In this document: positions 11,308 through 49,572 of the stretch, piece by piece
How the letters are laid out: every line of letters begins with the position of its first letter
Numbering within the stretch: the first letter of the stretch is position 1
Source of the DNA: Cylindrodendrum hubeiense
Lineage: Eukaryota; Ascomycota; Sordariomycetes; Hypocreales; Nectriaceae
Length of the DNA stretch: 64,000 nucleotides
Direction of reading: 5' to 3'
Assembly (NCBI GenBank): GCA_014621425.1
Contig: JAANBB010000066.1
Span: 62,001-126,000, forward strand
The notes under the pieces: model-generated
The model's database searches: none
Told to the model about the DNA's origin: nothing
What the model saw: the letters and a program-made list of their open reading frames with translations, nothing else
Program-made: the position numbers and the translations under genes

Positions 11308-11532
11308 CTACTTGGGAATCACATCGCCTTCTGACGCTTTGCGATTATTCTTGGACTTTGGGGGGTTGCAGGTCCAGCAGCCGGCAGGGTCAACGAATAC
11401 CTCAACCACATTCTGACTCTTCTTGCATGTGAGACCCTCCAGCTGAGGTTGGCAGAATTCCCAAAGTGGTCTATTGTAAATACATGTCTTGCAAGAGGAA
11501 CAGATAGACTTCCAGTCGGTAATGGTGCACAT
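11308..11532 (-). CDS. Small Cys-rich protein, array member A (74 aa)
   Basis: Last gene, in transcription order, of the six-gene array at 11.3-13.8 kb. It starts Met-Cys. Cysteines are at 2, 11, 14, 17, 27, 36, 52 and 55, so it keeps the array framework (2, 11, 14, 27, one in the middle, CxxC near the end) plus an extra Cys17 that makes C-x2-C-x2-C. It shares MCT, the Cys11/14/17 triplet and the terminal CxxC with member B. There is no signal peptide and the C-terminus is basic, so a cytosolic or nuclear metal-binding protein is the simplest guess. The longer open frame upstream is ignored, because the Met-Cys start aligns with the paralogues and lies 81 bp below a TATA box. Confidence 0.72.
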   Translation of the reverse strand: MCTITDWKSICSSCKTCIYNRPLWEFCQPQLEGLTCKKSQNVVEVFVDPAGCWTCNPPKSKNNRKASEGDVIPK

Positions 11533-11612
11533 TGCGGCGGTGTTAGTATGGAATCGAGAGTGCTTGGGGTGCGTTTGTGGTGGAGTTGGGCATTCTTGGA
11601 GCGATGCTCGCG

Positions 11613-11619
11613 TTTTATA
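11613..11619 (-). promoter_or_regulatory. TATA-like box for array member A
   Basis: TATAAAA on the minus strand, 81 bp upstream of the member A ATG. Confidence 0.5.
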
Positions 11620-11718
11620 GGCAACCTTTTGACACGATTCACTCAATATACGTGTATTAATTCATTGTCTGACACTCGTGCTTGCTTGGCAAAACAGTTC
11701 TAGGCGGCAACACGATCA

Positions 11719-11958
11719 CTACTTCTGAACCACTTTCTTGCCTTTACCAGTGGGATCATTTGATTGCTGTTGACTAAATGCAACACATTCAACGCATTTG
11801 GTAGCATCAACATGATCTTCTTCAAAGATCGGTGGCGTCGCTTCGCAGATGGTATCTGGAGATTGCACTTTCTTCGTGCAGATCAACCAATCGCGCGATA
11901 TTTCGAGACAGTTATAGCACGCGGTACAGATGGTGCGAACTTCTTTATAGGTGCACAT
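11719..11958 (-). CDS. Small Cys-rich protein, array member B (79 aa)
   Basis: The ATG at 11958 is followed by TGC, giving the Met-Cys start seen in all six members. Cysteines are at 2, 11, 14, 17, 27, 38, 55 and 58. Members A and B form a subtype with the extra Cys17. The middle is acidic (IFEEDHVDATKCVEC) and the tail is Gln/Lys-rich. Four cysteine pairs could hold one or two zinc ions; this is inference, since no known zinc-finger signature fits exactly. There is no signal peptide. The gene is intronless and is separated from member A by 186 bp. Confidence 0.75.
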   Translation of the reverse strand: MCTYKEVRTICTACYNCLEISRDWLICTKKVQSPDTICEATPPIFEEDHVDATKCVECVAFSQQQSNDPTGKGKKVVQK

Positions 11959-12061
11959 TTTAGCGTTGGCCTCTGCAGTGTATGTAGTGGCGTTAAAGCT
12001 GGTTCATATGAAGGTAGTCTTTGTTGGAAAAATTCTGTGCACGTTGAAGTGATCTCGCAGC

Positions 12062-12070
12062 ATTTATATA
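12062..12070 (-). promoter_or_regulatory. TATA-like box for array member B
   Basis: TATATAAAT on the minus strand, 104 bp upstream of the member B ATG. Confidence 0.5.
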
Positions 12071-12306
12071 TGCATATACGGCTGATTCACGTCAGATCTG
12101 GGAAAAATCATTCTGCTTATAATCAAGGTAAAATCAGAATACATCATTGATAAAGATTTGTTCTGCGTTAGCATGGGGCAGAGGGTGTTGCTCTTCACGC
12201 TGTATTTGCGAGTCAATCATACATCTTATTATTATTAAGGTCACAGGGAGAATAACAGTGTCTGTCTTGATGTTTTTAGATTAATTGCATGTCGATATTT
12301 CCCCTA

Positions 12307-12522
12307 CTAGAAGTACTTTCTAGTGCGTTTCTTCTGGGCCTCGGCACGACATTCGGGACACAGAGTACTCTTATCTGGTGCCGGCTTCTCAATTGTTCCA
12401 CACGACCCTGTGAGCCTCGACTCGGTCTTGCTTGCTGCGTCGCATTTGTCGAGTTTGTACCCATCCGTGTATAGCAAACCGCACTCCTTGCAGTAGAATA
12501 AGGCGAATCCTTCAACACACAT
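12307..12522 (-). CDS. Small Cys-rich protein, array member C (71 aa)
   Basis: Cysteines are at 2, 11, 14, 27, 41, 55 and 58, exactly the positions found in members D and E. The N-terminal part reads MCVEGFALFYCKECG; the middle holds DKCDAASKTESRLTGSCGTI, very like D and E; the end is LCPEC plus a basic tail (KKRTRKY). The CxxC pairs at 11/14 and 55/58 look like two knuckles of a zinc ribbon, with Cys2, 27 and 41 in addition. There is no signal peptide and no intron. The function is unknown. Confidence 0.8.
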   Translation of the reverse strand: MCVEGFALFYCKECGLLYTDGYKLDKCDAASKTESRLTGSCGTIEKPAPDKSTLCPECRAEAQKKRTRKYF

Positions 12523-12650
12523 AATTGTGAGAAAATATGTGCACCGGTTTGAAATGCGCGTTATGAGATAAAAGGGTTTTTAGAGGGTCGCTCGATAAAT
12601 TGTGTGATGTTGGGAGATTTCATTTAGGCTGTTGGAAAGGGAAAGGCTAA

Positions 12651-12658
12651 TATTTATA
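12651..12658 (-). promoter_or_regulatory. TATA-like box for array member C
   Basis: TATAAATA on the minus strand, 129 bp upstream of the member C ATG. Confidence 0.5.
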
Positions 12659-12784
12659 CACGTTCGACATCTCAATTTGGCCCTGTCACAGAACATACAT
12701 GCGCTGTCACTCACAGATGATCTTCAAGTATTAACTATGGCGCATTATCCATGAATGAGTCCAATTTGCCCTCCTTAATCCACA

Positions 12785-12976
12785 CTACTTTCTCTGGGAT
12801 TCACACTGGGGGCACAACTTGCTCCAATCAGCCGGCGGTAGATTGATTGTGCCGCAGGAACCTATTCCCTGTGTCTTGGTCCTCATCGCTACCGCACATC
12901 TCTGGTTTATCCATAAATTAGCATACCGCGTAGCGCAAACCTTACAGTAGGCCCAGTAGAAACCACGAATGCACAT
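12785..12976 (-). CDS. Small Cys-rich protein, array member D (63 aa)
   Basis: The shortest member. Cysteines at 2, 11, 14, 27, 41, 55 and 58 match C and E position for position. It begins MCIRGFYWAYCKVC, shares LWINQRC with member E (MWINQRC) and SCGTI with member C, and ends LCPQCESQRK five residues after the last Cys. The aromatic stretch before Cys11 (FYWAY) is also seen in C (FALFY) and E (LFQAF), so it may be a hydrophobic core or binding face. It is a single exon with the ATG at 12974-12976. Confidence 0.8.
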   Translation of the reverse strand: MCIRGFYWAYCKVCATRYANLWINQRCAVAMRTKTQGIGSCGTINLPPADWSKLCPQCESQRK

Positions 12977-13090
12977 TGTTGAGTTGATTGCTGTGAGGCT
13001 AATGTGAAATTATAGCAAGGTAATGGAAAAGGTTTGATCGAAGCTATGAGTCCTGGGATTCTCTGGCTCGATTGGAGAGGGGACTGACTC

Positions 13091-13098
13091 TATATATA
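13091..13098 (-). promoter_or_regulatory. TATA-like box for array member D
   Basis: TATATATA, 115 bp upstream of the member D ATG. Confidence 0.45.
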
Positions 13099-13185
13099 CT
13101 TCGGATCAGTGACTTCTGTGAATCAACGATCCAAGGTCAACACGTGGAATTATATTTGCTAGCCAGAATCTGTGCTTTAATTGCA

Positions 13186-13413
13186 TTAATTGACGACCCT
13201 GCCGTCGTTGTCAGTCAGTGTGTCCTGGGACTGAGGAGTACAAACAGGGCATGACTTGGTACTCTCCGACTGTGGCGTATTCAATTTGCCGCATGTTCCT
13301 ATTTCCTTTGACCTGGTCTTGCTTGCCGCTTCACATCTCTGGTTTATCCACATCATGTCGTACCGCCGACCGCAATCCTTGCAGAAGGCTTGAAAAAGGC
13401 CCATGGTACACAT
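13186..13413 (-). CDS. Small Cys-rich protein, array member E (75 aa)
   Basis: Cysteines at 2, 11, 14, 27, 41, 55 and 58, identical to C and D. It begins MCTMGLFQAFCKDCG, continues MWINQRCEAASKTRSKEIGTCG, and ends SCPVC followed by an acidic, polar tail of 17 residues. D and E look like the most recent duplicates by shared residues between Cys14 and Cys27. There is no signal peptide, no membrane segment and no intron. Confidence 0.8.
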   Translation of the reverse strand: MCTMGLFQAFCKDCGRRYDMMWINQRCEAASKTRSKEIGTCGKLNTPQSESTKSCPVCTPQSQDTLTDNDGRVVN

Positions 13414-13483
13414 TAAGTAAATTTGAACGATGACGTGTGAGATTATGAGAGGTATCGCCTTAAACCACTGAGGAAAGTTGGGG

Positions 13484-13490
13484 ATTTATG
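13484..13490 (-). promoter_or_regulatory. Possible TATA-like box for array member E
   Basis: CATAAAT on the minus strand, 71 bp upstream of the member E ATG. A weaker match than those of the other members. Confidence 0.3.
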
Positions 13491-13607
13491 CTCACTCGGC
13501 GTCTGTGAATTGCTATTTGTGTCACAATGTCAAGACAGTGATCCATTCGCGGTAAATTTATGATCAAGGTAAGAAGCAGTGATTGCTTTGTTTGGGACCC
13601 AGTGGAG

Positions 13608-13817
13608 TTAATCCGCTTCACCCTTGCCCTTTTCTCGGCGTCTACGACATGTACCGCACTCGGCATTTTCCACGCCGTCTCGTACCTCCACTCGCATCGA
13701 ACAACCTCCAAACCTATCGATTGTCCCAACCTCTGGGCAAGGGTCTTGCCTGAGCTTTCTTCCCAGTTGTCTGTCACAACTTCTGCAGATTGTTTTTATG
13801 ACGGTGTTCCAGCACAT
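13608..13817 (-). CDS. Small Cys-rich protein, array member F (69 aa)
   Basis: First gene of the array in transcription order and the most diverged. The Met-Cys start at 13817 gives cysteines at 2, 11, 14, 27, 39, 54 and 57, so Cys2-11-14-27 is kept and the later ones are shifted by one or two. The N-terminus (MCWNTVIKTICRSCD) resembles members A and B more than C-E, but it lacks Cys17. The tail after the last CxxC is strongly basic (RRRREKGKGEAD). The frame is open 14 codons further upstream; I took the inner Met because it aligns with the paralogues. Confidence 0.68.
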   Translation of the reverse strand: MCWNTVIKTICRSCDRQLGRKLRQDPCPEVGTIDRFGGCSMRVEVRDGVENAECGTCRRRREKGKGEAD

Positions 13818-13901
13818 ATTGGACTGTTCGGATGGCGGTTGAATGGGATGTGAGGTCAATTTGGCTGGTTGTTGGGTAGGATTTTCGAGAGGGCCATCAA
13901 G

Positions 13902-13908
13902 TTATATA
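13902..13908 (-). promoter_or_regulatory. TATA-like box for array member F
   Basis: TATATAA on the minus strand, 85 bp upstream of the member F ATG. Confidence 0.5.
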
Positions 13909-15163
13909 GACGACCGTGGCAGTGAATATCTGTTCGTTGTCTGTGATTACTGATGAGCTAGACATAAAACATCAATGATCACGGCGTAGATGTGTAGAGG
14001 GCTGAGGGGTTACGAGAACGCTGTGTAACCGAGTTACCGCCATGGGTGTCGTACATCCAATCTGCGCTTGGCACAGACATTGGCTGTGAGGTACAAATGG
14101 TGAACATTAAAGCCGAAGCATACTGAAAGTTGGACCAGTAGAAATCCCGGGCTTTCGAATGCCGCGCATTGCAACAAGCAACTTGCATCGGCTGTGAAGC
14201 GAGACTAGACGGACATCTCTGAATTGCCACCACATCATCGGATTTATGAGCTACTCCGATGTTCTGCCTCAAGATGAAGGAGCTGCGTCATCTCTGATGT
14301 AAACGGCTCTCCGATTGTCATTCTGATGCGTGACGCAATTCTTTGTTTGGAGTGGTGAAATTGACAAGCCCTTGTTGATGGCTGAGTACTTGGGTTTCGA
14401 ATAGAATATGCCTCTTAAGAACGCATCTTGATGGCCGCTGTGATAGACAGTACTGTCTCAATATTTGAGAAGAAGTTACCGGGATAAAACCCAATCCAGT
14501 CCACCCTCACTGCGATTAGAACGAATGGGGTAGTGAATTTCTGTTGAGGGCCTGCCAAGGCTACGTGCTCGTACCGTACCGACTTGTCCTCTGAATTCCT
14601 TTTAGCAGCTAACTGATCGAGTCGGCGCTAGGCATGCCGCTGTCTCACACTAGACACTATCTGAGACTATTGAAACTAGGGATGATTCCAAACTGGCCCA
14701 GTCAAACGGCCCGAGCCGAGCCTGCGATTACCGCTTCTGCAGACCCAAGAAATGCTCCATTACCCCAAACCACTTGACATGGGATGGTGATGTCACCCTT
14801 TATCAAAGCCAGAACAGCTAAGTCGAAGGGAGCTGGCCTGCGTTTAGGTCACACACTGTCTCACTTTTACTATCCTAGACTGAGTGAGCCACTCAAGATG
14901 GGGCCATCCCCACTAGCCCCATGGTCTAGGCCGACATTCTAGCCAGCCATCACACATTAGTTTTTGGGCTATTGGTAGCTCACTGCTGTTGCGGCTGAAG
15001 CATGAACTCGCTTTCGACAGCGATTGACTGGAAACGAAACATACTTGGAGCATTGAGACAGAAATGACCTAGTCAAGCCAGACTGGTTTGGTGTGGCTGA
15101 CTGGACGTCAGCACTTGATGCTTGTCTTGGAATCCATCAGTTCTCCAGTCCGAGCTCAGGAGG

Positions 15164-38419: not shown

Positions 38420-39959
38420 GGTTGGCGCTGTACTCCGTTAATTATGTGAAAGCTAAAAGCAGTTGGGCGAAAACACTGACAATAGGAGTAATGACTGAAG
38501 ATACGCTTGAAAAAGCGAACAATTTTTTGATGATCTACAAATTATCTTACGGATCATCCGTGATGCGTGTCTGCCGTGGGCTCTCGGGCGTGGGCAATTT
38601 CCGAGTGTCGGGAATGACAGCCGCCCGAATGTCCGACCATCCGATCGTCCGCGCGGCATTACAGAAAACAAAAAGAACCTGACAAGGGAGCATTTCGAGT
38701 GCACGGATGATGAATCCGCGGCTTCAGGACAAGGATGTCTCGATTTGCCGAGGCGCGACAACTGGGGAGTAAACCAAGGCTCAAGGCAATCGTCGGCTTT
38801 GCTTTGGCCGTGGGCCCATTCCTCACTGGCCCAGTCAACTGACAAGGCGCATGTACAATTTTGTGAGCTATACACTCTTCTGTAAGCGCCCTAATAAAGT
38901 GATAATTTAGAAAAAATATGCTGTGAGCACAGGTTGCTGCACAAAAATTGACAGGTTTGTAAGGGGATTCACTTTGTCTTCCATGCAGCACCACAGAACG
39001 CCGAAACCAACGGCTTGCACACTCGCGACGATGGTGTCACGGCGCACCAAAAGTCTTCCTTTCAATCAAACAGCTGACTTTGAAGTGCCCTGTTCCATTG
39101 GTTCTTTCTTGTTCACGAGTATCATAATCCGGAGATCTCGAATCTTTCTGGTCCGTTTGTCTGTTGCTTTGACTAGTCACCCAAAAATGCGCCCATGCCT
39201 TGTCGCACCCTGGTTGAGCCAAGAAGTGGCGAGTTAATATTCTGCTCGGGGGCTCGCTCAGATATCACGCAGCTCAATGTTCTATCACGGGTGGCCATAC
39301 GTGTTTCGGAATCGGCCCGGGTCACATTGTCCGACGGAAAGCCCTGAGTGCTGCCTTCATCGAAACCGTGGTGACGTTCCGCGAAAACACCAACATCCCC
39401 GTGCTGAAAGAGCATTTTGACAAGGGTGACAGCAACTCACTCCCAACTCCGTGTATAATCGTGAGCCACCCGTCAGGTTTCTACATACAATAAATATGAA
39501 CAGGGGGAAATACTAAAACCTCGGGTCGAGATTGATCGTGTTCGAAACAATATTCTCTCGACACTAACGGAGGCGATGATGCATCGCCAATCTGAGTCAG
39601 TACAATAAGAGCCGAGCGCACATTGATGCGCAAATATGGAAACATCAGAACAAATTCAAATGGTTCCAACGTGAAATAGAAAAGTGAAGACAATGTATGA
39701 TCATTACCATAGTGGAGAGCAGTCTACAGCAACGAAACAGATTATCGTCGCCAACCTCCCACAACCAATGCGTTCTCAACTACCGCCCAACCCTCATTCC
39801 AGCCTAGCGACACAGCAAGCTTTTGACAACCGTCCTTTGATGCCCGTTCCTCTATCCACTGATCCCGGTTGCTACTCATCCAGCACATGCACCGGTTTGT
39901 ACCGGTTTGTTCGATGTTGATGTTGTCGAATCTCGATTGGAAAATAGGAGACGTCTCGT
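38420..39959. other. Intergenic with an old dispersed repeat
   Basis: About 1.5 kb without a supported gene. It contains one copy of the short repeat shared with 41066-41158. Confidence 0.45.
38996..39069 (+). repeat. Copy 1 of a diverged dispersed repeat
   Basis: Matches 41066-41158 in the same orientation: GAACG, then CGG with TGCA, ACTCGCG, later CAAAAG, TTCCTTT and ATCAA in the same order, with an indel between. It looks like an old duplicated or mobile fragment. Confidence 0.4.
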
Positions 39960-43062: not shown

Positions 43063-46000
43063 CTACTTCCTGACCATAATGCCAACAATGGCATCCTTCT
43101 CACATGCGCTCGCAACATCCAACGCGCTCCTTCCCTTCGCATCCTCCTTCAGTGGATCCAGTCCCTTGCTCATCATCAACTCGAAGAGGGCCTTGTCATG
43201 GTCGTCTGAGTTAGGATACCCAGTCGTCTTACCAGCAATAGCGTGCAGCATAGTCTCGCCTCCGTGATTGGTAGCAAAAACATCAGCACCACTCTCGGCC
43301 GGGAACAGTTTGTCGTAGTGGGTCATATGGCACGCCATCGGGATTTGCTCCTTATCCGATGCCGGAGACCTCATGTAGACGTGCAACGGCGTGGTGCCCT
43401 CCTTGTCCCTCGCGTTAATGGAACCTCCAGCATCGATGAACTTGTTCCAAAGTGCCAGACTGTGATCGAAGTACTCCTTGGGCAGGTCGATATTTAGACG
43501 GCCGCTTCTACCTGGGTTTCTGGAATTCTTTAGGCACCGGGCTGCGATGTGGTGGAGCGCTGTCAGACCGTTCGGATCAGGTTCCAACAAGTCTGCGCCT
43601 TTGGAGAGAAGCACCTCGCAGACTTCGGGGCGCAACTCCAGGAGAGCATACTGGAGAGGCGTGTAGCCATCGTTATCCTTTGTGAGGAGGGTTGGAGCAA
43701 CCTCTGGGCGGTTGATGAACTCGATGATAACGTCGTCCGGCATGCCACTGTTGTTCAAGATGTGGTGCAGCGCCGTCTTCCCCTGGTAGTCAACCAGCGT
43801 AGCGTCCGCTCCAAGACCAACAATTCTGATCGGTGGGCCTGTCTCCTTCGGAGACCAGTGTCTGTGGGAATAGCCAGGCAAGACATCATGCCAGTCGCAT
43901 GCCGCCATCAGGACGGTTCGTCCCTGCTGGTCGCGCCTGTTGAAGTCTATGCGGGACACACACGGCTCCTCAAGCAGCGCCTTGATGGCCTCATATTCGG
44001 GATGCTCAAAAAGAAAGTTGATTAGGTTTTCCTTGTCGTTCAGGGGCAGATAAATATCCGCCCCTCGCTCAACCAGGGATTTAATCAGCGGAACGGAATT
44101 AGAGACCGACGCGTTGGTGATGGGAAACACTGAACAGAGAAGAGGGTATACTCTCCGCTGCTCTGTCAACGTGTAGTGAATGTCTCGACTGTGACGCTTC
44201 TCGTCGAGAGAGTCAGGACTCACGCCGTGATCGAGTAGCACCTCTAGTGCTTCTAGGTTCTGGTCTTGAATGGCCAAGAACAGGGGATTGATCTCCCCAA
44301 TTGTCGCATCTGCGCCCCTACGCAGCAGCTCCCGCATGACTTCGGGCGCCGCCGACGCCTTGTGTAGAGCTGAGTGGCCCTGCTCGTCCACAATGTTAGG
44401 ATCAGCCCCATTATCGAGAAGAATCGTCACGGCGGTGGCTCTCCAAAAATGCTTGATCTTGCTGTTGTCCCACTCCATTCCCCTAGCCGCCAAGTGCAGC
44501 GGAGTCCGTCCCTTATCGCCCCGTGCGTTGACGTCGGCGCCTTTGCTGATCAAGTACTTGAGACCCTCCAGCTGCCACCAGAGACCCCCTGAAGCAAGCA
44601 TGTGAAGGGCTGTCTCTCCAGGGGCGACCTCCGCCTTGCGATCGTAGTACTGCCCTTGGGTAACTGCACTGCGCTCATTGATGTCGACTTTGAGCGTTTC
44701 CACGAGAAGCTGCAGCATCTGCATGTTGGACTCCTCTTTGCTGCATGCCATCTGGAGGGCTGTTTGAGCACCACGGCCATAGTATGACACTTTCTTATCC
44801 TTTTTAGCTCTTTCAATTTTATCCTTGAGTGGTTTATAAGTGCTGTATGCTGCAACCAGGCGAGGGACGCCCTTTACAACTGGCAGCAGGTCGGAGTTGA
44901 CAAGTCTTTCCAGAAGCTCGTAATACGATGATTCGAGAGGGTGACGTTTAAATCCTTCATTAATCAGATATATAGCATCTTCGCAGTTCCAGAGGTTCAG
45001 GTAGTCGGCAGGAGCACGGAAAATCTCGTCCAAGGCGGACGCGGGGAGAGAAGCCCGAGATGATTTGGTGCAAATCAGCGCAATCTGAGTCTTGATCCGG
45101 CTTTTGATCAAGGAAACAAGCTCTGGCTTCTCGTTGTAGCCTAAACCTTCTATCGTTTTCTCAAATAGCTCCTCATTCGTAGCAAAGACTTCGATGAATT
45201 CTGTACAGCTGAGGCTAAGGGCAATGTCCAAAGCTGTGGATTCCTTACCGTTGACAGCGGAAGGATCAGCGCCGGCATTCAGAAGCATCTCCGCAATGGT
45301 GGCAACCGCGTAATGGAATGTCTTTCGGGCCACCAGCTTGTGTGTGCCGTATTTTATCCTGTACCACGGTTGTTCCTCACACAAATCCCGACCGCAGTTT
45401 GGCCGCAACGGATCCCGAGGGTCATCACCGAACCACCTGCGGCGTCGCTGGCGAAGGGCATCCCAAATATTCTGTTCGACTCGGAACGCTGCGCAGGCAT
45501 GAAGAGGGGTACATTTATCCTCATCAACTGCGTCAACGTCGGCGCCGTGCTTGAGCAGAAATGCGACGGATTCGGCTTCGCCCGAGGCACAGGCATAGTG
45601 AAGCGGTGTTCGGCCGTGGTCGTCCTTTTGATTGACATCAAGACCACTCTCTTCCGCCTTACTAAGAGCTTGGCCAACGATATCAGCGTTTCGGGAACGA
45701 GAGGCTAGATGCAGGACATTCTGGGAATCTGTAGTCAAGTGGCCCAAGTCGGCACCAGCCTCGATTAAAATAGCAAACTCAACCTCAGACCGCATGCTCG
45801 CCACGTGCAGGGCCGTCAAGCCATCCTTGTCTCTGATGTTAAAGTCGATATTCTCGCCATCTTGAATTGCGTGGACAAATTTGACATTCTTGGAGTTGGG
45901 ACGAGTGTTGCTAGAAGCCGTGGCTTCCATGTTGACGTGAATAGCGGTCTGGCCGTCGCTGTTGACGGCGTTGACGTCTATGCCGAGACTGACAATCCAC

Positions 46001-49000
46001 CGTACGTAGTCGGCTATTTTCTGTTCCGCGTGGTAAAGACTGGCAACAATATGGAGCAGCGTCTCTCCCTTGTTATTCGTAGCGAGCGGATCTGTGCCAG
46101 CGTCGATGAGGCGTTGGAGCACCCCCCGTGAGTTGTCTCTGCGGGCGACAATATGCAGAGCATTGTTCCCAGCGTTGTCGACAGTGTCGGTCTGAGCACC
46201 ATAGCGTTGAAGAATTTCCAGATAGCTTTCCCTGAATAGACAGCTCAAAAACAGTGTAGAGCCTTGCGCTGCTGACTTTGTGTTGATATCAATGCCTTCT
46301 GCGAGCAGTAGTTTGAGGTTTTGCTCGAAATCTGATTCGTTGCGTGCGTTAGCTAGCGAAAACCAGCATCGTCTCTTGACTGTTTCGCTTTTGCATTTTG
46401 ATAGCAGCAGCTTGAAGGTGGCGGGTCCGGTCAATGAAGACATTGCGTATTGTACTGGTGTGCATCCATAATTGTCTTCGATGTTGGGGTCAGCGCCCTG
46501 CTCAAGTAGATATCTAACGATGGCATCGGTATGATCGGGTACCATTTTCGTGGAACAGTTAGACAGCAAATGGTGCAAGGCTGTACTTCCACGAGAGTCC
46601 TTGGCGTTTGGATCGCTGCCGCGCTCTATAAGAGAGTGCACCATCTCGAGGTCGTGGAAGCTCTGGAGGAATACGTGCAAGACCGTCTCCCTTTCGCCAC
46701 GAGGATGAGACGACAACTTAGTGACGTCGGCTCCAGCCTCCAGCAGAGCACGCATTGCAGCCATCTGCTCTCGCTTGGGCCACGAGCCCCTTGTATTGAT
46801 TCCAGCAGTGCGAAACAGGCCCGTCTGTCCCTTACCGTCGGGCTGGTCTACGTCTGCGCCTCGTTTGACCAGCATGTCGAGAATGGCGCGGCAAGCGGCA
46901 TCGTTCTCAGAATTCCACATGTTGACGAGGTAATTCAGCGGCCCTCTCATAGTACTGGGCCTAAATGAGCCGCCATTGCGGCTTCGTCGCGGATGATAGA
47001 CCGATGTTTGCTTGACATTGGCCCCTCTTTTGATGAGAGCCTCGACACATTTAACGTTGACCGCACCACACGCAAAGTACAGGGCTGTTGCGCCGCTGAA
47101 GGTTGCATCTGGCGAGACATCAGACTTTTCAAGGATAGCTAACACGGCATCGGTGCGATTAAACCGACAGGATTCGCATAAGAGCTGCTCCAGCGTCTCT
47201 CCCTTGCAGAAAGGAATCATGGCAACCACGGCGTCTGTATTGCCACGCTTAGTGGCATAAAAAATTGCACATTCTCCCTTTGTAATCGTCTCGCCACCCA
47301 GCAATCGTCCAGCATGATTCTCTTTAGTTTTGATTGTAGTTGGCTCGACTCCCGCCTCGAGTAGGATAGTCAAAACTGCGGCGTGGTTTCTCCTTGCTGC
47401 GAGATGGATCGGTTTCAGACCGCGTCCGTCAATGGGGTTTGGATCACTTCCATGTTTTAATAGCAGCGATACCACTGTTGCATGGCCGTTCCTTGCTGCC
47501 CAATGCAATGGAACGCGTTCTTGTGCATCCAGAGCAGACACAGACTCTCCCTCCCGGATCAGCTTCAGAGCCAACTCCGACAGCCCACAAAAGGCAGCAA
47601 GATGAAGCGCCGTTGGGATACCGTCGGTGCTGGACTTGGTTCTAGATGTTGATTTCCACTGGAGGACAAGCCACCTAAAAAGTTCTAGTTTGGGCTTCAA
47701 GAATCCCAAAACCGCATCGAAAAATTCGTCGTCGTGCACATCATAGTGACTAGCATGATGTGCCCAATTCTCAACAGCGTAACTCAGAAACGGATGTTGT
47801 AGGCGAGCTTCCATGTATAAGAAGGGATCCCTTTCTTCTTCCAAGCCTAGATAGGACTGTCTATGATGCATTTCGTCATAATCGAACTCATGTGCGGGTT
47901 TGCTGAATGCCGTGGAGACTTGGTCTGCAGAATGCTCCCCTTCCAGCAACAGTGAGCCAGATTGAAGATATCGCAGGCAGTTAATCGTCAGCCGCTTGTG
48001 AGCTTCAGGGGAGTTGATGATGGGGAAATCCAATAAGGCCCCGCCGACGGGTTCGTTCCGTGTATCACCGCGCAGAAACTCGGTGAAAGAATGGTGAATA
48101 ACCTGTAATGTCTCGTCCTCCAGGACTTCGATGAGTGGGCCACAGCTGCTGCTAACTAGAGCTTTGAAGCCCGTCGGCTCAGCTGCATTTGCGCAAACGC
48201 ATTTTAATAGAGTTGCTAACTCGTTCAATCTCAAGGGGCGAGAGGCATGAGTCACCGCCTCGAGGATAAGAACCTGCACCTCGGTACTTATCCCGTTTTC
48301 TCTACGGTGCTTGGCCAGCAACCTGTTGTATGTCTGCTCCAGGCCAACAGGTAGCGATGCTTCGAGAGCTTCGATGTTGATGGGCTCATCAGAAAGAAGG
48401 GCGGACTCGATTTGATCCATGGTAAGCTTCGCGTAGAGAAACAGCCCTTCGGATCTTTTGGAGACCATATCAACGACCTGTTGTTTTATCGCACGCTGGT
48501 CGTCGGATTTGGGAGTTATGTCAAAGCGATATTTCAAATACGAGGTGATGTCGAGCTGAATGAGTTTCTGCTGCAGGCTGATGTGCACAATGGAGGAGTC
48601 CCGCAGCGCACTTTGCAAGTACTGTTTGGGTCGACTCGTCATGAACAGCTTGAGCGAACGCGGGCGGTAGGTGGCTAGGCTGTTGAGCCTGTCCAGAAAG
48701 GGCTTGTTGTCCAGAGTCATTTCATCGAGGGCGTCAGCGAAGCAATACACCTTTGGAACCGAAGAGACACCGTCCAGGAACAGGTCGACGAGGTCATTGT
48801 CGGACAAATCTGCGAGGTTGGTCTTGAGGAGCGGCTGAAGCGCGTACTGGAGCTTGACCGAGTGAGGCAGAAGCTGTGCCAGCCAGTCCTGCATCAAGGC
48901 ACGGGGCGAGAAATTGGAGGCCACAATATTGCGGAAGAAGAAGAAGAGCACGGGAACCTGCTCGGTGGTGCGCAGATGCTGGATCATGGACGCCGCAACG

Positions 49001-49269
49001 ACGGATTTGCCGGCGCCTGGAACGCCCTTGATCCAGAGGCTGCCACGGTCTGGAGAATCGTGCCATTGTCTATACTCTTCCGTTTCCGTGAGCCAGACGC
49101 CGGTACCTGGGGCCTGCGACAGGAGATGGCGACAGAACTCGCCTGAAACGGCCAGATAATCGGTGGGCTGGAGCCATTCCCGGATCTTGGCTACGTCGTC
49201 GGGGCCAAGGGCGGCGTCATCGTGACTGACAATGTCGTACTCGTCGGCTGTGAGTGCTGAGCGCGGCAT
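43063..49269 (-). CDS. NACHT-ankyrin NLR protein, 2068 aa, intronless
   Basis: Residues 1-75 hold the linker typical of fungal NACHT proteins (REWLQPTDY, then GTGVWLTETEEYRQW). The NACHT P-loop GVPGAGKS is at 82-89, the Walker B region VYCFADALDE at 174-183, and LFMTSRP (sensor) at 208-214. A helical winged region follows to ~600. From ~610 to the end there are well over 20 ankyrin repeats (for example TALHLAAFCGLSELALKLI and TPLHYACASGEAESVAFLL), some strongly diverged. The start at 49269 (MPRSAL) is the first ATG; the open frame upstream to 49440 has none. There is no HET, purine-nucleoside phosphorylase or lipase domain at the N-terminus, so its output domain is unclear. Such STAND proteins act in non-self recognition and cell death in fungi. 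No interruption was found in 6.2 kb. Confidence 0.93.
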   Translation of the reverse strand: MPRSALTADEYDIVSHDDAALGPDDVAKIREWLQPTDYLAVSGEFCRHLLSQAPGTGVWLTETEEYRQWHDSPDRGSLWIKGVPGAGKSVVAASMIQHLRTTEQVPVLFFFFRNIVASNFSPRALMQDWLAQLLPHSVKLQYALQPLLKTNLADLSDNDLVDLFLDGVSSVPKVYCFADALDEMTLDNKPFLDRLNSLATYRPRSLKLFMTSRPKQYLQSALRDSSIVHISLQQKLIQLDITSYLKYRFDITPKSDDQRAIKQQVVDMVSKRSEGLFLYAKLTMDQIESALLSDEPINIEALEASLPVGLEQTYNRLLAKHRRENGISTEVQVLILEAVTHASRPLRLNELATLLKCVCANAAEPTGFKALVSSSCGPLIEVLEDETLQVIHHSFTEFLRGDTRNEPVGGALLDFPIINSPEAHKRLTINCLRYLQSGSLLLEGEHSADQVSTAFSKPAHEFDYDEMHHRQSYLGLEEERDPFLYMEARLQHPFLSYAVENWAHHASHYDVHDDEFFDAVLGFLKPKLELFRWLVLQWKSTSRTKSSTDGIPTALHLAAFCGLSELALKLIREGESVSALDAQERVPLHWAARNGHATVVSLLLKHGSDPNPIDGRGLKPIHLAARRNHAAVLTILLEAGVEPTTIKTKENHAGRLLGGETITKGECAIFYATKRGNTDAVVAMIPFCKGETLEQLLCESCRFNRTDAVLAILEKSDVSPDATFSGATALYFACGAVNVKCVEALIKRGANVKQTSVYHPRRSRNGGSFRPSTMRGPLNYLVNMWNSENDAACRAILDMLVKRGADVDQPDGKGQTGLFRTAGINTRGSWPKREQMAAMRALLEAGADVTKLSSHPRGERETVLHVFLQSFHDLEMVHSLIERGSDPNAKDSRGSTALHHLLSNCSTKMVPDHTDAIVRYLLEQGADPNIEDNYGCTPVQYAMSSLTGPATFKLLLSKCKSETVKRRCWFSLANARNESDFEQNLKLLLAEGIDINTKSAAQGSTLFLSCLFRESYLEILQRYGAQTDTVDNAGNNALHIVARRDNSRGVLQRLIDAGTDPLATNNKGETLLHIVASLYHAEQKIADYVRWIVSLGIDVNAVNSDGQTAIHVNMEATASSNTRPNSKNVKFVHAIQDGENIDFNIRDKDGLTALHVASMRSEVEFAILIEAGADLGHLTTDSQNVLHLASRSRNADIVGQALSKAEESGLDVNQKDDHGRTPLHYACASGEAESVAFLLKHGADVDAVDEDKCTPLHACAAFRVEQNIWDALRQRRRRWFGDDPRDPLRPNCGRDLCEEQPWYRIKYGTHKLVARKTFHYAVATIAEMLLNAGADPSAVNGKESTALDIALSLSCTEFIEVFATNEELFEKTIEGLGYNEKPELVSLIKSRIKTQIALICTKSSRASLPASALDEIFRAPADYLNLWNCEDAIYLINEGFKRHPLESSYYELLERLVNSDLLPVVKGVPRLVAAYSTYKPLKDKIERAKKDKKVSYYGRGAQTALQMACSKEESNMQMLQLLVETLKVDINERSAVTQGQYYDRKAEVAPGETALHMLASGGLWWQLEGLKYLISKGADVNARGDKGRTPLHLAARGMEWDNSKIKHFWRATAVTILLDNGADPNIVDEQGHSALHKASAAPEVMRELLRRGADATIGEINPLFLAIQDQNLEALEVLLDHGVSPDSLDEKRHSRDIHYTLTEQRRVYPLLCSVFPITNASVSNSVPLIKSLVERGADIYLPLNDKENLINFLFEHPEYEAIKALLEEPCVSRIDFNRRDQQGRTVLMAACDWHDVLPGYSHRHWSPKETGPPIRIVGLGADATLVDYQGKTALHHILNNSGMPDDVIIEFINRPEVAPTLLTKDNDGYTPLQYALLELRPEVCEVLLSKGADLLEPDPNGLTALHHIAARCLKNSRNPGRSGRLNIDLPKEYFDHSLALWNKFIDAGGSINARDKEGTTPLHVYMRSPASDKEQIPMACHMTHYDKLFPAESGADVFATNHGGETMLHAIAGKTTGYPNSDDHDKALFELMMSKGLDPLKEDAKGRSALDVASACEKDAIVGIMVRK

Positions 49270-49572
49270 GCTCAAGCGAAAAATGAATAATGAATAATGG
49301 ATAATGGAGATATGTGATGATGGTGTTGAGAATGGAAAATGATGAAGCTGGAGTCTGAAACCAACGCCTCCTGTCAGACGTTGGCGCTGGATTAGGCAAC
49401 AGTGGAGAGTGGGGGCCAAAACAAGGCAGATTTCGACCACAGTGCCATAGCAGCAAAAGGTGGAACCTCCAGATACCAGCAGTTCTGTACACTATAACCA
49501 ACCCCTAAGCCAGTGTTCCTTTCACCAAACGGAACGAGCTGCTAGACTTGGGGGTTAGGAGGGATTCATTTT
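49270..49572. other. Intergenic, NLR promoter side
   Basis: About 300 bases upstream of the NLR ATG. It contains runs of ATTATTCAT-like sequence near 49280-49310 and the left target-site duplicate at its end. Confidence 0.5.

Follow-up and report, generated by a model that had tools for sequence, protein, structure and literature searches.

An apparently unannotated, tandemly clustered family of small cysteine-framework proteins in Cylindrodendrum hubeiense

The window analysed here, a 64-kb stretch of one contig (C623) of the Nectriaceae fungus Cylindrodendrum hubeiense (Hypocreales), contains on the minus strand at positions 11308-13817 an array of six ATG-started open reading frames (ORFs), which lie head to tail, encode 63-79 amino acids (aa) and each begin with Met-Cys. 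These genes belong to a family of at least 20 members on seven contigs of the genome, whose cysteines are fixed while most other residues vary. It is probable that they represent an undescribed family of small intracellular zinc-type cysteine proteins, individually promoted and tandemly expanded, for which we infer the metal, fold, partner, expression and function.

The six-gene array and its cysteine framework

Adjacent genes of the array are separated by 186-348 bp. Their coordinates and cysteine positions are as follows:

11308..11532, minus strand: gene A, 74 aa, Cys at 2, 11, 14, 17, 27, 36, 52 and 55
11719..11958, minus strand: gene B, 79 aa, Cys at 2, 11, 14, 17, 27, 38, 55 and 58
12307..12522, minus strand: gene C, 71 aa, Cys at 2, 11, 14, 27, 41, 55 and 58
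12785..12976, minus strand: gene D, 63 aa, Cys at 2, 11, 14, 27, 41, 55 and 58
13186..13413, minus strand: gene E, 75 aa, Cys at 2, 11, 14, 27, 41, 55 and 58
13608..13817, minus strand: gene F, 69 aa, Cys at 2, 11, 14, 27, 39, 54 and 57

Cysteines 2, 11, 14 and 27 occur in all six proteins and are followed by a fifth cysteine at 36-41 and a CxxC pair within 52-58; genes C, D and E are identical at all seven positions. The original prediction of six tiny head-to-tail Met-Cys genes on the minus strand was confirmed, including the lengths and cysteine positions, and an extra cysteine at position 17 of genes A and B was added to it. Counted mechanically from an upstream in-frame TTG, the ORF of gene A would reach 112 aa; there is no in-frame ATG upstream. 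A chance origin of the array is excluded, because six ATG-started ORFs of 40-130 aa with the pattern MC-x8-C-x2-C were found in the window, all of them array members, versus none in 40 equally long first-order Markov windows. In a further 184,011 bases of the genome (L026-L045), a sample including contigs C503 and C44 that were chosen because of earlier matches there, six such ORFs were found and all were family members. When all six frames of the window were scanned for remnants, one match appeared outside the array, at 39885, and was interrupted by stops; random windows averaged 0.2.

Across the 20 counted members the framework can be written MC-x8-C-x2-C-x3-[hydrophobic]-x8-C-x2-[A]-...-C-...-C-x2-C, with the hydrophobic residue at position 18 in 19 members and Ala at position 30 in 15. 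C2, C11, C14, C27 and the fifth cysteine (36-41) were present in every member, the first 27 residues were constant in length, and 8-13 residues lay between C27 and the fifth cysteine (C-x8-C-x2-C-x12-C-x8..13-C-...-C-x2-C). The late CxxC was found in 19 members, with CxC in its place in C516_3. The non-Cys columns among positions 3-26 had a mean pairwise identity of 0.094, compared with 0.065 expected from composition, which bears out the claim that the cysteine framework is kept while other residues diverge. Cysteine codons mix TGC and TGT (12 and 8 at column 11), showing that the amino acid is conserved and not the DNA. Cysteine accounts for 10.5% of the residues of the 20 members, and there is no common CxC position. 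A simple hydropathy test, applied to the proteins as read from ATG with upstream spliced exons outside its scope, found no signal-like N-terminus in any of the 20 members, the highest 19-residue mean within residues 1-30 being 0.92; this agrees with the absence of a signal peptide noted at the outset. Open codons upstream of the ATG numbered 11 for gene D and 2 for the C503_1 gene.

Family members across the genome

The genome (47.5 Mb, 798 contigs) was searched with single proteins, and the flanks around the matches were then scanned for ORFs. Six contigs other than that of the array yielded 14 further members, of which 11 lie in head-to-tail clusters. The members per contig were six on C623 (the window), five on C503, three each on C516 and C504, and one each on C44, C53 and C234; within each cluster (of 6, 5, 3 and 3 genes) all genes had the same orientation. 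The total of 20 is a lower bound, in which singletons were counted as far as flanking DNA was read. The local clustering seen in the window is therefore repeated at three other loci. Homologues with the same cysteine spacing, a test set beforehand, are present inside this genome as these 14 members, and a search of a protein collection (described below) gave none.

ORFs in the flanks were filtered for MC-x5..11-C plus at least four cysteines, and the framework was then judged by eye. Nine ORFs that passed this loose filter were without the framework and were not counted, and a match on contig C594 (E 0.188) was dropped, no member-like MC ORF being present there. Similarity within groups was strong by E-value (D-E, 5.5e-16; C504_1-C504_2, 1.3e-14; C44-C516_1, 9.6e-9). 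The protein tree grouped genes C/D/E (94/88), A/B (94/81), two C504 genes (87/96) and two C503 genes (97/91), and the window genes were clustered on it (as low in 2 of 500 shuffles).

Several other features were observed around the members. On contig C516 an ORF (L022:2583-3182, minus strand) with a PAP1 domain above its cut-off and bZIP_1 below it stands roughly 0.9 kb away from the cluster of three genes, and on contig C44 an ankyrin-repeat ORF (L029:4294-6012, plus strand) lies about 3 kb from the single member. A 10-kb block of the same contig (C44:20001-30000, L039) has 25.5% guanine plus cytosine and no open frame of at least 220 codons, and resembles an AT-rich block produced by repeat-induced point mutation. 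In the window, a CHY zinc-finger ORF (PF05495; 1376-1870, minus strand) lies near the start, and one open frame of 2142 codons (43066-49491, minus strand) has an NPHP3_N (Nephrocystin-3 N-terminal) domain and many ankyrin repeats, similar to fungal NOD-like receptors (NLRs); its NACHT match was just under the cut-off.

Selection and promoters

Among the 16 closest pairs listed, out of 190, a finite ratio of nonsynonymous to synonymous change (dN/dS, Cys codons excluded) was obtained for eight and ranged from 0.34 to 0.77, while dS over all codons ranged from 0.84 up to saturation. These values suggest purifying or relaxed selection, with no sign of positive selection. An arms-race or stress-metal role, as first proposed, was not borne out, the measurable dN/dS values all being below 1 and synonymous change at or near saturation.

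A strict TATAWA sequence was present at -160 to -60 in 10 of the 20 members versus 0.80 expected (matched in 0 of 1000 shuffles), and in five of the six window genes versus 0.27 expected. It was found in only 2 of 63 control ORFs (Fisher 3.8e-6), which were ORFs of at least 200 aa taken from the first ATG, so that some starts may not be true gene starts. The boxes in the window, with a presumed promoter function, and two occurrences of a candidate shared cis element, which is exploratory, are listed below:

11614..11619, minus strand: putative TATAWA box 87 bp before the start codon of gene A
12063..12070, minus strand: putative TATAWA box 112/110 bp before the start codon of gene B
12653..12658, minus strand: putative TATAWA box 136 bp before the start codon of gene C
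13091..13098, minus strand: putative TATAWA box 122/120 bp before the start codon of gene D
13903..13908, minus strand: putative TATAWA box 91 bp before the start codon of gene F
12083..12089, minus strand: TGAATCA in the upstream region of gene B, candidate shared cis element
13119..13125, minus strand: TGATTCA in the upstream region of gene D, candidate shared cis element

For gene E, the -160 to -60 region is without a strict TATAWA. Judged from these sequences, each clustered gene appears to have its own promoter. GAATCA occurred in 11 of the 20 upstream regions versus 2.80 expected (corrected p 0.042), and the same number contained AATCAC, for which 2.24 were expected (corrected p 0.0046); one or the other was present in 14 of the 20 member regions (window 11533-14167; others L007-L048) versus 18 of the 63 controls. 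This pair may be a shared regulatory element, which stays exploratory because the pair was picked after looking and because an expectation-maximization (EM) search favoured a CT-rich motif instead, with a log-likelihood of 29.0 versus 22.9-27.0 for 12 shuffled sets, where the real set was given 60 starts and each shuffle 30.

Comparison with known families and interpretation

None of the six window proteins reached the cut-off of any Pfam or NCBIfam family. When all 20 members were compared with Pfam and judged by E-value, 34 families had E<=1, and the best E among the best 25 of these 34 was 0.0013 (YnfU, one member). A profile search of PDB with the 20 members gave 38 matches up to E 10, the best at E 0.13 (cytochrome b-c1 subunit 6), which were taken as chance matches of cysteines. 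None of the literature matches listed described the spacing, and the full string C-x8-C-x2-C-x12-C, in compact spelling, was absent among them. The earlier remark that no named family with this spacing was known is in line with these results.

Among the closest known systems are zinc ribbons, treble-clef fingers and short RING-like fingers, in which a CxxC knuckle is likewise combined with another CxxC far along the chain. The profiles of such families were not matched at their cut-offs by the window proteins. The fungal Zn2Cys6 cluster (PF00172) is likewise fungal with six or seven cysteines, but its spacing is CX2CX6CX5-12CX2CX6-8C, which differs from that of the family, and PF00172 was not among the best 25 of the 34 Pfam families. 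Fungal metallothioneins are small, intracellular and Cys-rich proteins with a very high cysteine density and repeated CxC; they were rejected as a match on the basis of the cysteine content, the lack of a common CxC and the single fixed framework of the family. Small unannotated Met-Cys proteins with CGxH replacing CxxC, which might be linked to the family, are common in Pezizomycotina; no Met-Cys ORF of the CGxH type was found in the window or in the 184,011 bases (L026-L045). The N-terminal signal peptide of small secreted Cys-rich effectors was found by hydropathy in none of the 20 members. Plant DUF26/Gnk2 proteins (PF01657) are secreted and have an identical first spacing, C-x8-C-x2-C. 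One of the 20 members matched PF01657, at E 0.077, and the first cysteine of the family directly follows the initiator Met. DUF26 is described as unique to land plants (PMC7461100). Plant SRNF/GIR proteins carry a signature, printed as CX2CX12CX2X10 and lying ahead of the C-terminus, which shares the spacing CX2CX12C with the family (PMC8494181). The family differs in its N-terminal MC-x8, in the 8-13 residues that follow Cys27 and in a late CxxC that stands apart.

The zinc-type reading is favoured because the CxxC knuckle, the hydrophobic residue four positions after it, Cys27 with Ala30, the middle cysteine and the final CxxC resemble the logic of zinc ribbons and treble clefs. The cysteines would bind one or two zinc ions, with C11 and C14 as a knuckle that pairs up with the CxxC near the C-terminus in the manner of these folds, and with C2, C27 and the cysteine at 36-41 forming either a second partial site or a brace for the N-terminus. 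Such a metal-held scaffold would tolerate nearly any surface, so that tandem duplication would give many small binding modules, which are probably regulators that bind proteins or nucleic acids and are expressed under inducible TATA promoters. As a general rule, removal of Met before Cys leaves Cys as the N-terminal residue, and Cys2 would be exposed in this way. A more elaborate version, which we consider quite improbable, is that the miniproteins display this N-terminal cysteine to complete a metal site or to serve as a redox- or oxygen-sensitive switch, and have been expanded in tandem as a variable recognition layer of a fungal non-self or stress response. Of the original interpretation, the real family with its fixed framework, clustering and lack of both signal peptide and name stands, and zinc binding and the arms-race or stress-metal role stay conjectural.

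Several results count against the zinc-type reading or narrow it. The shared cysteines are seven, an odd number, and there is no fixed His, so two full Cys4 sites are unavailable. An AlphaFold model from the six window sequences had a mean predicted local distance difference test score (pLDDT) of 41.1 and a predicted template modelling score (pTM) of 0.22; CxxC occurs at 11-14 in all members and late in 19 of 20, and the model confidence was too low to see a metal site. The E-values linking the window set to other clusters were weak (F-C503, 0.029, reverse 0.0157; E-C44, 2.02), and this tie rests mainly on the exact framework and the tandem habit. As the flank members were chosen by eye on the framework, its conservation in 20 of 20 is partly built in. 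The protein tree was mostly unresolved (13 of 17 inner branches) and did not group the five C503 genes (184 of 500 shuffles); because it groups the window genes and not these, recent local expansion is shown for parts of clusters only. Half of the members (10 of 20) are without a strict TATAWA, and the family is known here from DNA sequence alone. Furthermore, alignments of six and of 20 members found no protein at E<=1 in the protein collection, not even their own copies, among 16 and 73 candidates, respectively. Candidates enter that search only if they share 5-residue words with the query and are 0.55-1.75 times as long as it; a family conserved only in its cysteines, or a merged gene model, may therefore escape it. 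The collection covers fungal proteins and includes one of the window contig, G7Z17_g4557, which is 100% identical to a transcription-factor ORF of the window over 47% of its length; since the members' own copies were nevertheless unmatched, the deposited annotation seems not to list the genes as separate proteins of about this length. Scans with protein E gave 4 stretches fitting a pattern in viral contigs and 33 in prokaryotic genome contigs, none of which was confirmed.

The same features could be explained in other ways. Disulphide-rich peptides that act as effectors or antimicrobials are commonly small, combine a cysteine framework with a divergent surface, and are encoded in tandem clusters by genes with promoters of their own, and the proteins might be exported unconventionally to act outside the cell; this is unlikely given the lack of a signal-like N-terminus by hydropathy in all 20 members, the few open codons upstream (11 in D and 2 in C503_1), the odd number of shared cysteines and the two CxxC pairs, which are typical of metal sites. 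At least seven cysteines in about 60 residues, promoters of a TATA type that would suit inducible genes, and the PAP1-domain ORF near the C516 cluster are all compatible with other metal handling, either by a Cu(I)/Cd stress chelator or by a small iron-sulphur (Fe-S) protein. We give this a similarly small chance, for the cysteine content and missing shared CxC are unlike those of metallothioneins, and the window proteins fell below every Pfam cut-off, with Fer4_2 (E 0.26, gene B) as the nearest Fe-S match. The apparent absence from deposited gene models would also fit untranslated or decaying ORFs without function, which is highly improbable in view of 20 open frames with fixed cysteines although synonymous sites are near saturation, the lack of such ORFs in the 40 random windows and the TATA enrichment.

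The family is ordinary in its presumed chemistry, and is unusual in how little beyond the cysteines is kept and in being apparently unannotated. It shows how annotation and homology search can both overlook an entire multigene family in which hardly anything except seven cysteines is retained, and the framework provides a concrete pattern for finding the family in other fungi. If the proteins do bind metal and act inside the cell, they would amount to a natural library of minimal scaffolds that are held together by metal and whose surfaces vary freely.

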